57,943 nucleotides of DNA, taken from contig JAKSLT010000004.1 in the NCBI GenBank assembly GCA_024401055.1, forward strand, positions 1 through 57,943, in the 5' to 3' direction. How positions within the stretch are numbered: position 1 is the first letter of the stretch; each line of letters starts with the position of its first letter. Both the position numbers and the translations under genes were made by a program. The stretch is from Bacteroidaceae bacterium (GTDB taxonomy: Bacteria; Bacteroidota; Bacteroidia; Bacteroidales; Bacteroidaceae). Below are positions 3,478 to 48,795 of this stretch, piece after piece. Below the pieces are notes generated by a model, which worked only from the letters and a program-made list of their open reading frames with translations, did no database searches and had not been told where the DNA came from.

Positions 3478-3703
3478 CAGCCCCTTCCCGTCAGGGCTTC
3501 CTGCGGAACCCTGCCACCCCTCCCCCATTTGGGAGGGGAAAATACCTCTATAGGTCGTGTCTTGGGGTTGTGAGGTTGTAAGGTTTTGGGTTTTGTGGTT
3601 ATGAGGTTTTGGTTTTTTCTATTTGGGAACCTTTAGGGCATTATTCCTTCCCCTATGGGGGGAAGGTGGCGCGGTGCGGAGCTGCCGCGTCAGATAGGGG
3701 CTG
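3478..3703. mobile_element. MITE-like element, copy 1 (226 bp)
   Basis: Left arm 3478-3522 starts CAGCCCCTTCCCGTC, contains the hairpin AGGGCTTCC/GGAACCCT (3493-3512) and ends GCCACCCCTCCC. The inverted right arm ends at 3703 (GGGGCTG). The interior keeps the family words ATACCTCTATAGG and CCTTTAGGGCATTATT but is partly replaced by TTTTGTGGTTATGAGG-like sequence. The right arm supplies the clpC stop codon. Same family as 14834-15507, 47281-47483 and 48581-48773. Confidence 0.8.
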
Positions 3704-13477: not shown

Positions 13478-14824
13478 CTACAGCAGGAACCTGTCTATAT
13501 CGTTGAATATGGCGTAGGCCATCAGGGCTATCAACAGCCACATGCCTATGGTGTTGAGCACTTCCACCACCTTGTCGGGGAAGCGTCGGCGCGTGATGAC
13601 TTCAAGGAGCGTCAGGAAGATATAGCCGCCGTCCAGCGCGGGGATGGGCAGGAAGTTCATAAAGGCCAACATCAGGGAGATGAAGGCAGTGAGTTCCCAG
13701 AAGCGGCCCCAGTCCCATACAGCGGGGAAGAGGCTGCCGATGGTGCCGAAAGAGCCCACGCTCTTGGCGCCGTCCTTCGTGAAGAGGTATTTCAGGTCGC
13801 TCACATAGCCGCACAGCACATTCCATCCGTGGCTGATACCTGCGGGGAATGACTCGAAGAAGCCGTAGTGCTCCGTCACGGTCTTGTAGTCGGCCAGCGT
13901 GGAGTGGAAGAGTATGTTCAGTTTGGCGTCCTCGCCCACTTCTGCCGTCAGCGTGTCGAAGGCTTCGCCGCGGGCTACTACGAGCGTTGTCTTGCGGGCT
14001 TTCTTCAGGTTTTCGGACTTCACCACATCGCCTACCACGCTCAATTCATACATCACGGCATTACCGCTCGCCGTCTCCTTGCCATTCACGTTGACGATGC
14101 GGTCGCCTTTCTTCATACCGGCCTTCTCAGCAGGACCACCGGCGATGACGCTGTCCACCACGTTGCCCTGTCGCAAGTCCATAAAGCGCGGCGAGGTCTG
14201 TATCATATCCAGCATATTCAGGTCGCCGGGCAGTGCTATGTTCACCTCCTTGCCGTCGCGCAGTACGGTGCATTGATGAGCCGTGGAAATGGCGCGGTAG
14301 ATGTCGCCGCTGTGGCTCTTGAACTCCTGACCGTCGGCAGCCAGCACGATGTCGCCGTCGCGGAAGCCCAATGCCTGTGCCTCTTTGTTAAAGACATAGC
14401 CTTCGGTCATATTCCTTTGGGGCACATAGGTCTCGCCCCAAACGAAGAACACCATAGCGTAGATAAACAATGCCAGCAGGAAGTTTACCAATACGCCGCC
14501 CACCATCACCAGCAGACGCTGCCAGGCGGGTTTGGCGCGGAACTCCCACGGCTGCACTTCCTTGCCGAGTTTGTCGGCGCTCGTGCTTTCGTCCACCATA
14601 CCCTCGATGCTCACATAGCCGCCCAGAGGCAGCCATCCGATGCAGTAGTCGGTGCCTTTATAGCTAAAGAGTTTCAGCGGCTTTATCCACGGGTCGAAGA
14701 ACAGGCAGAACTTGCTCACGCGGATGCCAAACAGTTTGGCGAAGAAGAAATGACCACCCTCATGCAAGAGGATGAGGATGCAGAAACACAACAAGAGTTG
14801 TGCGGTTTTTATTAAGAAGACCAT
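13478..14824 (-). CDS. rseP: RseP-type site-2 membrane protease
   Basis: 448 residues. Zinc site HEGGH in the first transmembrane segment (LILLHEGGHFFFAK), internal PDZ region (about 205-290), and a C-terminal membrane segment with LDGGYIF carrying the third metal ligand. Cleaves transmembrane substrates such as anti-sigma factors. It heads the minus-strand housekeeping run; the arm of the DUF559 element begins only 10 bp upstream of the ATG, so the start region may come from that element. Confidence 0.93.
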   Translation of the reverse strand: MVFLIKTAQLLLCFCILILLHEGGHFFFAKLFGIRVSKFCLFFDPWIKPLKLFSYKGTDYCIGWLPLGGYVSIEGMVDESTSADKLGKEVQPWEFRAKPAWQRLLVMVGGVLVNFLLALFIYAMVFFVWGETYVPQRNMTEGYVFNKEAQALGFRDGDIVLAADGQEFKSHSGDIYRAISTAHQCTVLRDGKEVNIALPGDLNMLDMIQTSPRFMDLRQGNVVDSVIAGGPAEKAGMKKGDRIVNVNGKETASGNAVMYELSVVGDVVKSENLKKARKTTLVVARGEAFDTLTAEVGEDAKLNILFHSTLADYKTVTEHYGFFESFPAGISHGWNVLCGYVSDLKYLFTKDGAKSVGSFGTIGSLFPAVWDWGRFWELTAFISLMLAFMNFLPIPALDGGYIFLTLLEVITRRRFPDKVVEVLNTIGMWLLIALMAYAIFNDIDRFLL

Positions 14825-14833
14825 AATAATTTA

Positions 14834-15507
14834 CAGCCTCTCCCCGTCAGGGCTGCCTCCGGCACCCTGCCACCCCTCACCTGTTGCTTTTGGCGACGGC
14901 CAAAATGCCGAGGGGGATATTACTTGAAAAAGTATTATTTAGGAGAGTGTGAAGATTTATTTCAATTTTTGTTATTTGTTTGTATTATCTGTGAGATGTT
15001 TTCCCGTATATCATCAAGGACATCATCCAAATGGTAGAGAACATCTTCATTGGTATAGCGCAGCACTTTGTAGCCCAGGTGAACGAGGTCGCCAGTGCGA
15101 ATAGCGTCTTCCGAAGATTGTCTTGCAGAGTTGTGATAGTCACCGTCTATTTCTATAACAAGGTGCAAAGGAAGGCAGGTGAAATCTGCAATATAGTCAC
15201 CAATGGGGTGTTGCCGTCGGAAGTTCACGCCAAGTTTCTTCGCTCTCAATTCATACCAGATACAATCCTCTGCCACTGTCATATTATGCCTCAATCCTCT
15301 GGCATATCCTTTCAGCAACTCATATCTATCTGGACGGCTACTCCTATAAAACCGGCTAAGTTCCCTATCCGCTTCACCAGCCATATCCTATTATCTATCA
15401 GTTAAGCGTAATCTAATCAGTGTCCCAATCAGCGCCCCGCATTCTCCCCCTCCCTAACAGGGGAGGGGTGGCGGAGTGACGAAGTCAGCTCCGACGGGGA
15501 GAGGCTG
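14834..15507. mobile_element. Candidate autonomous element: inverted arms around a DUF559 gene
   Basis: Left arm 14834-14878 (starts CAGCCTCTCCCCGTC) and inverted right arm 15463-15507 agree at 38 of 45 positions. Nearly all differences lie in the internal hairpin, and each arm still pairs with itself: AGGGCTGCC/GGCACCCT on the left, GGAGCTGAC/GTCACTCC on the right. The arms match those of the short MITE-like elements elsewhere in the window. The enclosed DNA holds one gene, a DUF559 nuclease. No target duplication is obvious. Movement by this nuclease is inference. Confidence 0.65.
14962..15384 (-). CDS. DUF559 (Vsr/restriction-like) nuclease
   Basis: 140 residues. Core runs from AKGLRxNMT-like (GYARGLRHNMTVAEDCIWYE) through FRRQHPIGDYIADFTC to VIEIDGDYHNS and GYKVLRYTNEDV. 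DUF559 belongs to the PD-(D/E)xK-like nuclease fold; D in DYIADF and ExD in VIEIDG are the likely metal ligands. No signal peptide. No methylase or specificity subunit is nearby, so it is not an evident restriction system. Its position between inverted repeat arms suggests a role in spread of that repeat (inference). Confidence 0.85.
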   Translation of the reverse strand: MAGEADRELSRFYRSSRPDRYELLKGYARGLRHNMTVAEDCIWYELRAKKLGVNFRRQHPIGDYIADFTCLPLHLVIEIDGDYHNSARQSSEDAIRTGDLVHLGYKVLRYTNEDVLYHLDDVLDDIRENISQIIQTNNKN

Positions 15508-17584
15508 TTACTCTAAAATTCGTCACCTTACTCTTAAACGCACCCGTTTCTTTCAGCGGGAACACCAGCGTGCGTTGGAAGTACATCACGCTCTTGTTGT
15601 CTTCGGGGAACACCTCGGGCACCCACATCTGCTTGTTGTTCTGCAAGTATGGGTTGCGGCCCTTGTCCGTAGCGGTGAGGAGTTTCTGGCGGTTGAGGCG
15701 CTCGCGCACCTTCCCGTTCACGAGGAGCACCGTCTCATTGTTATTGCACACTATGGTGATGTCCTCATTCACATTCTTATTCACGCGGTAGTTGAACGCG
15801 CAGAAGTAGCCCTCGCGCTCGAAGCCCAGACGGCCCGTCTCGGGGTCGGAGAGGTAGAAGGTTGTCTCGTCGGTCTTTGTCAGCACCGTGCCTTTTGCTT
15901 CATCAGCGCCTTCAAGGTGGAAGCTCACCTCGTATCCGTAGCCGATTTCCTCGGGGCCGCGCAGCGTGGTGTTGGCGGGCAGTTCGTCCAGACAGAGCAG
16001 TTCCTGGTTCTCGTGGGGCAGCAGCCACAGGCCGTCGGCATTCTTGCCGCGCGCCAGCTGGTTCACGCCGGGGGCCTCGCTCAACATCAGGCGGTTCATA
16101 TTGAACTCTTCATACGGCACCTTCGTCTCGGCACCTCTCCAGCACTTCACGGCCAGCGTCTGCAGGGCCGGCATCACGCGGTCGTGGACGTCGCGCACGG
16201 TGATGCCGTTGCCGGCGTGGTCGTTCCACACGGCAAACATACCGCCCAGGAGGCTCTCGTCCTGCTCTTCAAACTTCTCGCCGCCAATCTGTGCCGGCGT
16301 CCAGCCGTTGTAGAGCATCTGCGTGTTGAGGTAGTCATAGTAGTAGCCGGCGGCGGGCACGATATACACGTAGCCGTCGGGGATGCTCACCAGTTTGTAG
16401 CCCTGCTCCTTCATATCGCGGGGCTGCGCATAGCCGTTGTACCAGCAGTTCATCACCACGCCGTCGTTCGTCACGGGCGTCTCACCCTTGGCGTGCGTCA
16501 GCGAGCCCCAGCAGGCAGGCGTCTTGCCGTAACTCTTCACGAGGCGCAGGTAGCGGTCGGTGAAGTAGCGGAACTTCTCCACCACTTCCTTCTTGGCATT
16601 GCTGTATTCGTCCGTACCGATATTCACGGTCTTACCCACGAACACGGGGTCCTTGCCGCCCAGATATTCTGCGAAGAGGCTGTCGAGGAAGGGGTACAGG
16701 TCTTCGTTGAACAGGTCGAGGTGGTCCATACCGAACTCCTTACTGCCCAGGCTCGGGCGGTAATGGCTGAAGGCCAGGCAGTGCGCCGGTATGTCAATCT
16801 CCGGCACCACTTCAACGCCCATCTTCGCGGCCTCTTTCTGGAACGCCTTGAACTCCTCCTTGCCGTAACTGCCGTCTTTGGCGGTCAGGCCGGGGAAGTT
16901 GGTGCTTTCCAGTCGGAAGGCGGCGGGAGTCTTGTCCCAGTCGCCGCCGAAGTACTGTTTGAAGCCGTTGTCGTTCAGATGTATCTGCAGCGTGTTCATC
17001 TTGTAGTAGGCCATACACTTTGCCAGGTCCTTCAGGTAGCTCATCGGGAAGAACTTCCTGCCGCAGTCTATCATAAAGCCGCGCAGGGCATACTGCGGCT
17101 CATCGTGACACACGCCGCAGGGCAAGTCCCGATCAGCATTCTGCTCAGCAATCTGCAAGATTGTGCGCGTGCCCCAGTACAGGCCCGTCGCCGTTGGGGC
17201 CGTCAGCGTCGTGCCTTTCTCGCTTATCGTAAGGTCGTATGCTTCCGCAGCAAGTTCAGCATGCTGCCCCTTGTCTGTTGTCCGTTGTCTGTTGTCTGTT
17301 GTCTTCTTCAGACAAAGTTCCACGTCGCCGGCCTGCAGTTTCCCGCTCGTCACGACGGGCAGCGTCTCGCCGAACATTTCCTTCCAGTCGGCAGCCATCT
17401 GGCGGGCCACTTCTGCCGTGCCCTTGCGGGCCACGATGCGCTTCACATGAGCACCACCCTCGCCGCCTGTCCACTGTTGAAGTTCGGGCACCACGAAAGG
17501 TTTACTGTTCACAGACTCGGCAGAAGCCGAAACGAGCAATCCTGCTGCGACGAACAGGACACTCATGAGAAAAAGTCTTTTCAT
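15485..17584 (-). CDS. Secreted GH20 beta-hexosaminidase
   Basis: 699 residues with a signal peptide (about 1-22). GH20b-like domain (about 30-155), then the TIM barrel (160-480) with the catalytic Asp-Glu pair at 325-326 (NIGTDEYSNA), and a C-terminal beta domain (LamG-like, 540-690). Removes terminal GlcNAc/GalNAc from glycans in the periplasm or outside. Two oddities: residues about 94-106 (TTDNRQRTTDKGQ) come from a 7-bp tandem repeat, and the final TASPRRS plus TGA lie in the right arm of the DUF559 element. A perfect -7 box is upstream at 17634. Confidence 0.92.
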   Translation of the reverse strand: MKRLFLMSVLFVAAGLLVSASAESVNSKPFVVPELQQWTGGEGGAHVKRIVARKGTAEVARQMAADWKEMFGETLPVVTSGKLQAGDVELCLKKTTDNRQRTTDKGQHAELAAEAYDLTISEKGTTLTAPTATGLYWGTRTILQIAEQNADRDLPCGVCHDEPQYALRGFMIDCGRKFFPMSYLKDLAKCMAYYKMNTLQIHLNDNGFKQYFGGDWDKTPAAFRLESTNFPGLTAKDGSYGKEEFKAFQKEAAKMGVEVVPEIDIPAHCLAFSHYRPSLGSKEFGMDHLDLFNEDLYPFLDSLFAEYLGGKDPVFVGKTVNIGTDEYSNAKKEVVEKFRYFTDRYLRLVKSYGKTPACWGSLTHAKGETPVTNDGVVMNCWYNGYAQPRDMKEQGYKLVSIPDGYVYIVPAAGYYYDYLNTQMLYNGWTPAQIGGEKFEEQDESLLGGMFAVWNDHAGNGITVRDVHDRVMPALQTLAVKCWRGAETKVPYEEFNMNRLMLSEAPGVNQLARGKNADGLWLLPHENQELLCLDELPANTTLRGPEEIGYGYEVSFHLEGADEAKGTVLTKTDETTFYLSDPETGRLGFEREGYFCAFNYRVNKNVNEDITIVCNNNETVLLVNGKVRERLNRQKLLTATDKGRNPYLQNNKQMWVPEVFPEDNKSVMYFQRTLVFPLKETGAFKSKVTNFRVTASPRRS
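17271..17305. repeat. 7-bp tandem repeat in the GH20 coding region
   Basis: Five units of TTGTCTG (second TTGTCCG, last TTGTCTT) within the first 110 codons. Seven is not a multiple of three, so gain or loss of one unit would shift the frame. Confidence 0.85.
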
Positions 17585-32560: not shown

Positions 32561-32640
32561 CAGCCTCTCCCCGTCAAAGCTTCCTTTGGAACTTTGCCAC
32601 CCCTCCCCGGTTAGAAAGGGGGAAAATACTTATAAAGGGA
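32561..32640. repeat. Single arm of the DUF559-type repeat
   Basis: Starts CAGCCTCTCCCCGTC, hairpin AAAGCTTCC/GGAACTTT, then GCCACCCCTCC and a AAAATACTTATAAAGGG interior remnant. No proper right arm; an AGCCCC/GGGGCT hairpin at 32682-32716 before nanA may be its remnant or an attenuator. Confidence 0.7.
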
Positions 32641-46321: not shown

Positions 46322-47254
46322 ATGAGAAGAAACGGAAAAGTCCCCTTTACGACCTTCACGGTGCGGCACGCCACGACGCTGCTGGAGTTTATCCAGGAGG
46401 CGCTGGAAGGCATCTCGCGCAACAAGGCGAAAGCTATCCTGCAGGGCGGCGGTTGTCGCGTGGGACGCAGCATAGTGACCCAGCACGACTACGCGCTGAA
46501 AGCCGGCGACAAGGTGGACATCAGCAAGCATAAGCAGAAGGCCACGCTGCAGAACAGGTTCCTGCGCCTGGTGTATGAGGACGGGCAGATTATCGTGGTG
46601 GAAAAGGCCATCGGCATCCTGTCCATGGCAAGCGCCACGCAGCGGTTCTGCGTGAAGACGCTGCTCGACAATTATTTCCGCCAGAGCGGGCAGCGCTGCA
46701 CGGCCCACGTGGTGCACCGCCTCGACCGCGACACGTCGGGCCTGCTGGTGTATGCCAAGACGAAGGAGGCACAGATGACGCTGGAGAACAACTGGCACGA
46801 AATAGTGACCGACCGCCGCTACATGGCCCTCGTGAGCGGGCGCATGGAGCAGAAGAGCGGCACCGTGCGCTCTTACCTGAAGGACAACCGCCAGTACGTG
46901 ACGTATTCCTCGCCAGAGGACAACGGTGGCAAACTGGCCATCACGCATTTTCGCACGCTGCAGGCGGCGGATGACTACTCGCTGGTGGAACTGCGCCTGG
47001 AAACGGGCCGCAAGAACCAGATTCGCGTACACATGCAGGACTTGGGCCACCCGGTGTGCGGCGACATCAAGTACGGCAACGGCGACGACCCCATAGGGCG
47101 CCTGGCGCTCCATGCCTTCCGCCTGCACTTCTACCACCCGGTGACGGGGGAACATTTGAAGTTTGAAACAACGATACCGGCCAATTTCAAGCCCCTATCC
47201 GTCGCGGCTGCTTCGCACCGCGCCACCTTCCCCCGTGCAGGGGAAGGAGAATAG
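46322..47254 (+). CDS. RluA family pseudouridine synthase
   Basis: 310 residues. S4-type RNA-binding start (SRNKAKAILQGGGCRVG), catalytic Asp in HRLDRDTSGLLVYAKT, and TGRKNQIRVHMQDLGHPV. Isomerises uridines in rRNA or tRNA; which site is not clear. The last 20 or so residues (PLSVAAASHRATFPRAGEGE) and the stop are encoded by a repeat arm, so the natural C-terminus was near ...FETTIPANFK. Confidence 0.9.
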   Translation: MRRNGKVPFTTFTVRHATTLLEFIQEALEGISRNKAKAILQGGGCRVGRSIVTQHDYALKAGDKVDISKHKQKATLQNRFLRLVYEDGQIIVVEKAIGILSMASATQRFCVKTLLDNYFRQSGQRCTAHVVHRLDRDTSGLLVYAKTKEAQMTLENNWHEIVTDRRYMALVSGRMEQKSGTVRSYLKDNRQYVTYSSPEDNGGKLAITHFRTLQAADDYSLVELRLETGRKNQIRVHMQDLGHPVCGDIKYGNGDDPIGRLALHAFRLHFYHPVTGEHLKFETTIPANFKPLSVAAASHRATFPRAGEGE

Positions 47255-47270
47255 CCCTAAAGGAAAGAAA
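47190..47270. repeat. Partial DUF559-type repeat overlapping the RluA-type gene end
   Basis: Left arm with AGCCCCTATCCGTC, hairpin CGCGGCTGC/GCACCGCG, GCCACCTTCCCCC and the interior start ATAGCCCTAAAGGA, then cut off. A second element begins 11 bp later. Confidence 0.75.
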
Positions 47271-47280
47271 ACTCACCCGA

Positions 47281-47483
47281 AGCCCCACCCCGTCGCGGCT
47301 GCTTCGCACCGCGCCAGCCCTCCCCTATAGGGAGGGGGAATAATGACCAAAAGGACGCATACTTAGTAATTCATAAATATAATTTTGTTGCCCCAATACG
47401 CATACTGCCTATAGAGGTATTTTCCCCTCCCTATGGGGGAGGGGTGGAAAAGTGCCGAAGGCAGCTTTGACGGAGAGGGGCTG
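47281..47483. mobile_element. MITE-like element, copy 2 (203 bp)
   Basis: Left arm starts AGCCCCACCCCGTC with hairpin CGCGGCTGC/GCACCGCG. The interior has AAAAGGACGCATACTTAG, AATTCATAAAT and CCTATAGAGGTATTTT. The inverted right arm has hairpin AAAGCTGCC/GGCACTTT and ends GGGGCT. It occupies the whole gap before trpS, ending 10 bp before its ATG. Confidence 0.85.
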
Positions 47484-47493
47484 CGACATCAAA

Positions 47494-48582
47494 ATGAGCA
47501 ATAAAATCATCCTTACGGGCGACCGCCCCACGGGTCGCCTCCACATCGGACATTACGTGGGTTCGCTACGCCGCCGCGTAGAGTTGCAGAACGAGGGCGA
47601 CTATGAGAAGATGTACGTCTTCATCGCTGACGCACAGGCCCTGACGGACAACATCGACAACCCGGAGAAGGTGCGCCAAAACGTGATAGAGGTGGCACTG
47701 GACTATCTGGCCTGCGGGCTGGACCCGGAGAAGGTGACCATCTTCATCCAGAGCCAGATACCAGAACTGACGGAGCTGGCCTTCTACTTCATGGACCTCG
47801 TGAGCGTGAGCCGCCTGCAGCGTAACCCCACCGTGAAGACGGAGATACAAATGCGCGGATTTGCCGGCGAGAGCATCCCCGTGGGGTTCTTCACCTACCC
47901 CGTGTCGCAGGCCGCCGACATCACCCTGTTTAAGGCTACCACCGTGCCGGCCGGCGAGGACCAGAGGCCTATGATTGAGCAGGCCAACGAGATTGTGCGC
48001 CGCTTCAATAATATATATGGAGAGACGCTGGTGGAGTCGCAGGTGATGCTGCCGCAGAATGCCGCCTGCTGCCGCCTGCCGGGAACCGACGGCAAGGCGA
48101 AGATGAGCAAGAGCCTGGGCAACTGCATTTACCTGAGCGACAGCGCCAAGGAACTGAAGAAAAAGGTGAACAGTATGTATACCGACCCCGAGCATATACA
48201 CATCGAGCAGCCCGGCCATCTGGAAGGCAACACCGTGTTTACCTATCTCGACGCCTTCGCCACTGACGAGGACTTCGCGCAGTTCCTGCCGGAATACAAG
48301 AACCTGGACGAGCTGAAGGCCCACTACACCCGTGGCGGCCTGGGCGACGGCACGTGCAAGAAGTTCCTCTACAATGTGCTGAACACCCGTCTGGAGCCCA
48401 TCCGCACGCGCCGCGAGGAGTTGCAGAAGGACATCCCCGCCATCTACGAGATGCTGCGCAAGGGCTGCGAAGATGCCCGCAAAGTGGCACGGCAGACGAT
48501 GGAGGAAGTGCGCAAGGCTATGAAGATAGACTACTTCAACGATGCCGAATTGATAAAAGAGCAGGCTAACAGATACAAATAG
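47494..48582 (+). CDS. trpS: Tryptophanyl-tRNA synthetase
   Basis: 362 residues from [20 protein letters not shown]; 14 more in-frame codons upstream come from the repeat arm and are excluded. Class I HIGH motif in [10 protein letters not shown] and KMSKS in [11 protein letters not shown]. Charges tRNA-Trp. The gene is bounded on both sides by MITE-like copies; its TAG stop (48580-48582) shares the first AG of the downstream element. Confidence 0.95.
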
Positions 48583-48773
48583 CCCCTCTCCGTCAGAGCC
48601 ACCTCCGGTGCTCTGCCACCCCTCCCCTTAGGGAGGGGAAAAATGTCCTAAAGGACGCTTACCTAACAATTCATAAATCCATTGCCCCAAAGACACTACC
48701 TATAGAGGTATTTTCCCCTCCCTATGGGGGAGGGGTGGCAGAGCACCGGAGGTGGCTCTGACGGGAAGGGGCT
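48581..48773. mobile_element. MITE-like element, copy 3 (193 bp)
   Basis: Left arm 48581-48625 and right arm 48729-48773 are almost perfect inverted copies, both with hairpin AGAGCCACC/GGTGCTCT. The interior (CCTAAAGGACGCTTACC, AATTCATAAATCC, CCTATAGAGGTATTTT) matches copy 2. It fills the trpS-serS gap. Confidence 0.88.
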
Positions 48774-48795
48774 TAATTTTTAATTTTTCATACAA

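Follow-up and report, generated by a model that had tools for sequence, protein, structure and literature searches.

REPtrons, in which a Y1/HUH enzyme (RAYT, TnpA-REP) is associated with GTAG-tagged REPs and REPINs, are among the described systems closest to the locus reported here, as are Rickettsia palindromic elements, which are in-frame translated palindromic inserts in proteins and, to our knowledge, carry no gene. In the RAYT/REPIN system, as presented in the part of the work drawn on here (PMC8049555), the repeats are multiplied by an enzyme that is kept vertically. Other palindromic repeats bear a CGTC tag and include Rickettsia RPE-4/6 and Neisseria dRS3; the cited portion of Di Nocera 2013 (PMC3733652) presents them without a dedicated transposase. 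Likewise, for the GC-rich intrastrand triplex motif of E. coli, no mobility activity nearby is reported in the cited sections of Holder 2015 (PMC4666352). In this report, we describe a DUF559 nuclease gene enclosed by hairpin-forming inverted arms in a window of 57,943 nt (the whole stretch of DNA analysed, from contig JAKSLT010000004.1 of a Bacteroidaceae bacterium), and we consider it probable that this locus is a small mobile element in which DUF559 serves as a REP-mobilising nuclease, RAYT-like but unrelated, acting on its arms. Full-text searches, with subscription papers mostly outside their scope, returned no description of a DUF559-arm association among the matches listed.

The first-pass annotation of the window had placed a DUF559 gene between inverted arms alike at 38 of 45 positions, and our analysis confirmed this arrangement: the gene matches PF04480 (E=2e-31), and the arms at 14833-14885 and 15456-15508, 53 nt each and 85% complementary, come near the earlier figure and are the sole inverted pair of at least 15 nt that an inverted-repeat search reported within 14300-16000. 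The element has the following parts.

14833..14885, plus strand: left arm, with the outer end, the CGTC-tagged hairpin and the start of GC-rich hairpin 2 (inverted repeat; arm profile match 14834-14929)
14848..14869, plus strand: hairpin 1 of the left arm, from the C of CGTC to the G before CCA (covariation over 49 arms)
14962..15384, minus strand: DUF559 (PF04480) nuclease gene, PD-(D/E)XK/Vsr-like, 140 aa (PF04480 E=2e-31)
15447..15468, minus strand: hairpin 2 of the right arm, CCCCTCCC...GGGAGGGG (folding and alignment of arms)
15456..15508, minus strand: repeat part of the right arm; including hairpin 2, the arm extends to about 15437 (inverted repeat and arm profile)
15472..15493, minus strand: hairpin 1 of the right arm, with CGTC tag and CCA tail (covariation and folding)

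Read from the outer end inward, the 49 aligned arms consist of GCCYC (49/49), the CGTC tag (43/49), hairpin 1, a CCA tail (48/49) and hairpin 2. Hairpin 1 is a nine-pair helix broken by a bulged C (45/49 arms), with one pair that uses the C of the tag and a loop of 3 nt. Across the 49 arms, 96.5% of its cells are paired, compared with 32-45% in slid controls; its covariation score of 0.548, against 0.195 for shuffles, was reached by 0/500 shuffles, and both-sided changes occur in 6/9 pairs. Two further counts for hairpin 1 did not rise above shuffles, namely pairs with double changes (62/500 shuffles as high) and further pair types (493/500). Both hairpins formed in the 4 arms that were folded as single-stranded DNA (z -2.1 to -3.6), and this folding together with the covariation of hairpin 1 indicates that the arm structure is probably under selection, whether as DNA or as RNA. 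In the left arm of the window element, hairpin 2 extends to about 14916, and within its loop, in the stretch 14870-14920, lies an additional inner inverted repeat, TTTTGGC...GCCAAAA, that the other aligned arms do not have.

These arms resemble the CGTC REPs, as characterized in the cited portion of Di Nocera 2013, in the tag, the CCA tail, the hairpin between them with a stem of 8-9 bp (here 9 pairs with a bulged C) and the occurrence of paired units. They differ in the bulged C, in a loop of 3 nt instead of 4-5 nt, in the first two stem positions (A:T in CGTC REPs; here A:T in 30/49 arms at the first pair after the tag, then G:C in 27/49 at the second), in the second GC-rich hairpin and in the DUF559 gene inside. 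The element is also like a REPtron in that a nuclease gene stands between short palindromic repeats, many gene-free inverted pairs are present, the gene is kept vertically at some sites and no target duplication is seen. It departs from REPtrons in having several copies per genome and in-frame insertions in genes, in the enclosed gene, which is a PD-(D/E)XK/Vsr-like PF04480 member and not an HUH enzyme (the four PF01797 genes of this genome are located elsewhere and have other repeats), and in the repeat tag, CGTC and not GTAG; because both enzyme and tag differ, the DUF559 element is not a REPtron. Many arms at DUF559 loci of named genomes read CCTCACCCC-NN-CCCCTCTCC...GGAGAGGGG, a look that we take for that of the triplex motif or box C. 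A box C-like repeat, which we take to be the GC-rich triplex motif/box C, lies 3' of the DUF559-family gene ycjD of E. coli (L193 / L215), and there it differs from the arms in being present on one side only.

The arms had further been said to be those of short gene-free elements near 3478, 47281 and 48581, and the arm profile recovers the same family there as inward-facing pairs, along with two single arms in the window.

3478..3703, no strand assigned: gene-free arm pair, MITE/REPIN-like (arm profile; inner 75 nt)
32561..32631, plus strand: single arm (arm profile)
47189..47263, plus strand: single arm, adjoining the 47280 pair (arm profile)
47280..47482, no strand assigned: gene-free arm pair (arm profile; inner 54 nt)
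48580..48774, no strand assigned: gene-free arm pair (arm profile; inner 44 nt)

Throughout the 2.31-Mb source assembly (83% complete), the arm core GCCACCCCTCCCC occurs 176 times with at most one mismatch, compared with 18 occurrences of the reversed control, and inverted arms enclose 6/6 of the DUF559 genes found. Five of these six carry the arm family of the window; the other (L001) has a different, shorter pair (GACCCCCCAGTCCCCCC..., 30 nt, 87%) and additionally shows weaker, chance-like inverted pairs. A set of 432 kb, composed of the window and 20 stretches picked mostly for arm matches and including three further DUF559 sites, holds 97 arm matches and 34 inward-facing pairs less than 1.5 kb apart. 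The inner length is 23-207 nt in 30 of these pairs and 458-546 nt in the remaining 4, which are exactly the DUF559 elements; thus, DUF559 is the only gene carried within the 432 kb read, and the 30 short inverted pairs share their ends with the gene-bearing element in the manner of MITEs or REPINs. The proteins of the 4 other elements of this genome with the window arm family share only 46-53% identity with the window protein, and L023 and L026, which lie on a single contig in the same genome and are the closest copies at different sites, are 87% alike. One arm pair (L167:4232-4587) has inside it 207 nt of tandem partial hairpin units, in which no DUF559 remnant was seen.

That DUF559 genes of other genomes would mostly be bounded by arms was a prediction of the earlier annotation, and it held in named genomes, where 59/78 testable DUF559 loci were enclosed (local inverted alignment score of at least 30 in 400-nt flanks), compared with 4/185 control ORFs in the same loci; the loci are the best-scoring 80 of more from one scan and are not independent, with groups sharing orthologous sites, and the controls are ORFs called mechanically from ATG, about 110 to 430 aa long, real and spurious alike. 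Enclosed loci include records titled Elusimicrobia, Myxococcota, Zixibacteria, Acidimicrobiia, Hyphomonadaceae and Rhodospirillaceae, and the arms differ in sequence across several phyla. Nitrotoga, Dehalococcoidia, Chromatiaceae and most flavobacterial records did not reach the threshold, although repeats could be seen by eye in some of them, and the misses cluster in flavobacterial-type records (e.g. L117, L139, L141 and L152); some misses are in-frame copies with the left arm within the matched stretch or decayed. The family sample (61 genomes), which had no matched ORF control, gave enclosure of 20/22 testable strong matches, the six of the source genome included, and of 0/5 testable weak partial matches; L014, L019 and L030 did not lend themselves to a proper test in it, and a cross-locus 'null' is uninformative in this sample because the loci share arm families. 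Enclosure was found at 16/24 testable loci in the phylum sample (highest-scoring loci) and at 7/12 loci in a plasmid collection (12 of 45 matching records), in Azospirillum lipoferum, Sphingomonas (three loci), Sinorhizobium, Deinococcus and Sphingobium; among the plasmid misses, two cyanobacterial loci were sub-threshold with visible repeats, and one Azospirillum site (two strains) and Methylobacterium were not enclosed. On viral contigs 23/56 loci were enclosed, a result weaker than on chromosomes and without a control, from a set into which 59 of 80 loci entered, with partial matches mostly dropped and 3 more loci too short. Chance or base composition is rejected as an explanation by the ORF control and the reversed-pattern controls.

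Empty sites in related genomes, also anticipated, are present for all three elements of the source genome (of 6) that were compared with congeners, each in at least one congener. For the window site, positions 13500-16600 were compared with 58 genomes of the genus, the source genome included, and the site was inspected in G062, where the flanks align at 79% and 81% and are separated by 101 bp, as against about 700 in the source genome; these 101 bp yielded no arm. The element of contig 12 lies between two genes, presumably prfA and pyrF, and among ten congeners queried G062, G101 and G114 have both genes 79-86 bp apart without the element and with clean junctions after the stop codon, while G089 instead has 286 bp of other sequence. 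At the site of the contig 61 element, G062 has 55 bp, with flanks of 87% and 96%. DDE-type insertion sequences make a target-site duplication, whereas the 34 arm pairs do not show one, direct repeats of at least 4 nt at their ends being no commoner than with random pairing. An ORF of at least 150 aa ends within 20 nt of the element in 14/34 pairs, including all four DUF559 elements, compared with 3.9% of random placements, which include gene interiors, so that part of this stop-codon preference is mere avoidance of genes. Many of the insertions are old, with the same site kept, so that present-day mobility is only a possibility. Two genomes that are about 94-97% alike differ by 105 nt of arm-like repeat DNA flanked by GGA at either end (L110:3380-3484), which one of them (L103) lacks; we do not count this as an exact insertion between close relatives, as it may equally be a deletion in L103.

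The DUF559 protein belongs to PF04480 by its profile match with conserved acidic residues, and E39, D67, E78, D80, H84, D93 and R96 are invariant across 48 sequences. Its nearest solved chains are 3hrl, an endonuclease-like protein (E=5e-32), and 3r3p, a mobile intron protein (E=2e-6) which we take to be I-Bth0305I. The gene is under conservation, with dN/dS of 0.03-0.16 in the 7/17 locus pairs where it was computable, some with high dS; 7 of the other pairs had saturated synonymous change and 3 a stop in the stretch. A Caulobacter DUF559 protein, VsrA, is proposed as a very-short-patch repair enzyme in the cited part of PMC12907096. In E. coli, ycjD lies between sapF and fabI in every genome covering the query, among the matches listed, and at least 80% of the ycjD-region query was found in one place in 3363/5426 genomes. 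We rejected ycjD as a presence/absence case of mobility, as the one alternative strain inspected, FDAARGOS_1301, has another neighbourhood upstream of fabI and not an empty ycjD site.

The relationship to 3r3p, a mobile-intron protein, raises homing into repeats as a rival explanation, whereby another agent spreads the arms, and DUF559 cuts gene-free pairs and enters them when the break is repaired by copying, with the arms as homology. EDxHD/Vsr-like homing endonucleases are like DUF559 in this profile match and in being selfish nucleases, and the fact that DUF559 proteins no more than about half identical share one arm family in the source genome looks as if they had been swapped into resident arms. 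However, the empty sites that were inspected contained no arm, so no prior arm pair is needed, though an intermediate may have been lost; arms of differing sequence enclose DUF559 in several phyla; and 26/84 DUF559 genomes of the phylum sample are without any hairpin of the exact pattern described below, a count that covers that arm type alone. Unlike homing endonucleases, the DUF559 elements have hairpin arms of their own, occupy dispersed unrelated sites and, when inserted in frame, remain with arms and nuclease in the host frame; neither an intron nor an intein was noticed, inteins being covered by a Pfam scan of ten fused frames. We judge homing into repeats to be an unlikely account of these elements.

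It had also been predicted that the abundance of the arms would track the presence of DUF559, and this was supported in 198 Bacteroidota genomes, scored for DUF559 at E<=1e-12 and for hairpins with the exact pattern CCCCTCC..GGAGGGG. DUF559 is present in 84 of them, in 40/47 genomes with at least 3 hairpins compared with 44/151 others (Fisher 9e-12), and in 19/20 genomes with at least 10 hairpins; 0/20,000 within-family permutations reached the observed co-occurrence. RAYT genes (Y1_Tnp) are present in 98/198 genomes and co-occur with DUF559 (odds ratio 3.1), and the association of hairpins with DUF559 holds both in RAYT-positive genomes, where at least 3 hairpins are found in 31/55 with DUF559 vs 4/43 without, and in RAYT-negative genomes (9/29 vs 3/71). 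Arm similarity rises with protein similarity (Mantel rho 0.27, 0/999 permutations; 2459 non-orthologous pairs, 72 enclosed elements), a signal that may partly reflect shared host ancestry or base composition. Genomes rich in new arm insertions but without a DUF559 gene had been named as evidence that would tell against the proposal, and in part such genomes exist: seven genomes of the phylum sample with 3-19 hairpins, among them G277 with 19, have no DUF559 at E<=1e-12, and G017 has 145 hairpins and no DUF559 at E<=1e-3. The proposal is weakened to that extent by G017 and G277, and the 26/84 DUF559 genomes without any exact hairpin likewise tell against it.

Genome G017, with 3 Y1_Tnp matches (one strong), also suggests that DUF559 could be a passenger or helper, that is, that a RAYT or another transposase moves the arms in trans and DUF559 is cargo kept for host benefit, or assists. 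The source genome has four RAYT (Y1_Tnp, PF01797) genes (L273-L276), each with its own inverted repeats, which make up a distinct REP system that coexists with the DUF559 arms. Conservation of DUF559 at fixed sites also fits this view. Both genes are present in 17/20 genomes with at least 10 hairpins, and within the DUF559 genomes hairpins are more abundant where a RAYT is present (at least 3 in 31/55 vs 9/29, p=0.04; at least 10 in 17/55 vs 2/29), so RAYTs may contribute to hairpin abundance. On the other hand, hairpin abundance depends more on DUF559 than on RAYT (logit effects 2.4 vs 1.0), RAYT without DUF559 has no clear effect (4/43 vs 3/71), G056 has 90 hairpins with 2 DUF559 genes and no Y1_Tnp match at E<=1e-3, and no other gene is carried in the 34 arm pairs. 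The RAYTs of the source genome also carry unrelated repeats: the arm profile gave nothing better than E 0.1 at the four loci, though one of them (L275) has a 13-14 nt word resembling the outer end of the arm. A RAYT as the sole mover in the source genome is thus unsupported, and we hold the passenger or helper explanation to be improbable as well.

At several loci, one reading frame spans arm, DUF559, arm and host protein. As located by Pfam, DUF559 lies between the B12-binding domains of methionine synthase (metH; L138, L239), inside leucyl-tRNA synthetase (leuS; L219, L222) and, in a type I restriction enzyme (hsdR; L223), between HSDR_N and the ATPase; in HsdM (L233) it follows the N-6 methylase domain. 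It precedes guanylate kinase in L022 and isopropylmalate dehydrogenase in L008, and it follows a GATase in L228. When the leucyl-tRNA synthetase of L222, whose arms are decayed, is compared with the solved Thermus enzyme, matches stop at residue 236 and restart at 243, with 155 query residues between. The same protein (L222:1-2775) has a second extra segment of about 59 residues at 146-204, outside the DUF559 insert, and one methionine synthase frame (L156:517-4032) has two DUF559 stretches at different places by Pfam. DUF559 elements recur in or beside restriction-modification-type genes (L217, L218, L220, L223, L225, L233, L188 and L191), with DUF1156 neighbours identified by annotation; the hosts and neighbours other than DUF1156, HsdR and HsdM are presumably of this type. 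At least 29 DUF559 matches in the phylum sample, among those listed, lie in stop-to-stop frames of at least 300 aa, and a Pfam scan of ten fused frames gave no intein family, the frame reading through arms and DUF559. The first-pass annotation had ascribed Pro/Gly-rich ends to DUF559 proteins of other Bacteroidota, and such ends were indeed seen: PLPLGE-like peptides are the arms when translated, and in several loci the frame runs through them into the host protein. In-frame translated inserts are common to these elements and the Rickettsia palindromic elements, and the nuclease domain in the insert sets the DUF559 elements apart from them. A host nuclease for mismatch repair or anti-phage defence, lodged in unstable repeat-rich intergenic DNA with arms that are terminators or present by chance, could be argued from VsrA, as proposed in the cited part of PMC12907096, and from the constant place of ycjD, but it is largely contradicted, and very improbable, in view of the tight inverted enclosure at most loci set against 4/185 enclosed controls, the in-frame insertions in metH, leuS and hsdR, which are flanked by repeats at either end, though decayed ones in leuS, and the empty sites.

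The candidate nuclease-driven selfish element that the annotation had proposed stands as a candidate, with enclosure, empty sites and hairpin tracking mostly as predicted. Enclosure, the repeat family, the empty sites, covariation, co-occurrence and conservation of the gene are the observed part of our explanation. From these we infer a working in which the arms at 14833-15508 would serve as the ends of the element and DUF559 would bind them, probably as folded single strands (the bulged CGTC hairpin and the CCCCTCCC/GGGAGGGG hairpin), and cut there. Cutting would allow copies of the element, and much more frequently of gene-free arm pairs, to arise at new places, either intergenic, with a preference for positions just after stop codons, or in frame in permissive loops of proteins. 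The system may therefore work like RAYT/REPIN, with a nuclease retained over long periods sustaining a population of short palindromic repeats, and would do so with an unrelated enzyme of the PD-(D/E)XK type.

DUF559 is a widespread small bacterial nuclease, and it may be the engine that spreads hairpin repeats whose mover was unclear. Our proposal offers such an engine for abundant repeats that, in the cited parts of their descriptions, are reported without one (CGTC REPs, PMC3733652) or without mobility activity nearby (triplex motif, PMC4666352), and DUF559 is a candidate mover for both the CGTC REPs and the E. coli triplex motif. In addition, it would give a role to a large and little-studied nuclease family, explain the Pro/Gly-rich 'PLPLGE'-like segments beside DUF559 domains as translated arms, and describe a mobile element capable of in-frame insertion into essential enzymes. 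More tentatively, we suggest that DUF559 could be the missing dedicated enzyme of orphan repeats, both CGTC REPs and those like the triplex motif or box C, and thus the basis of a second, RAYT-independent REP-mobilising system in several phyla, one that would also insert in frame into essential proteins as translated domains.
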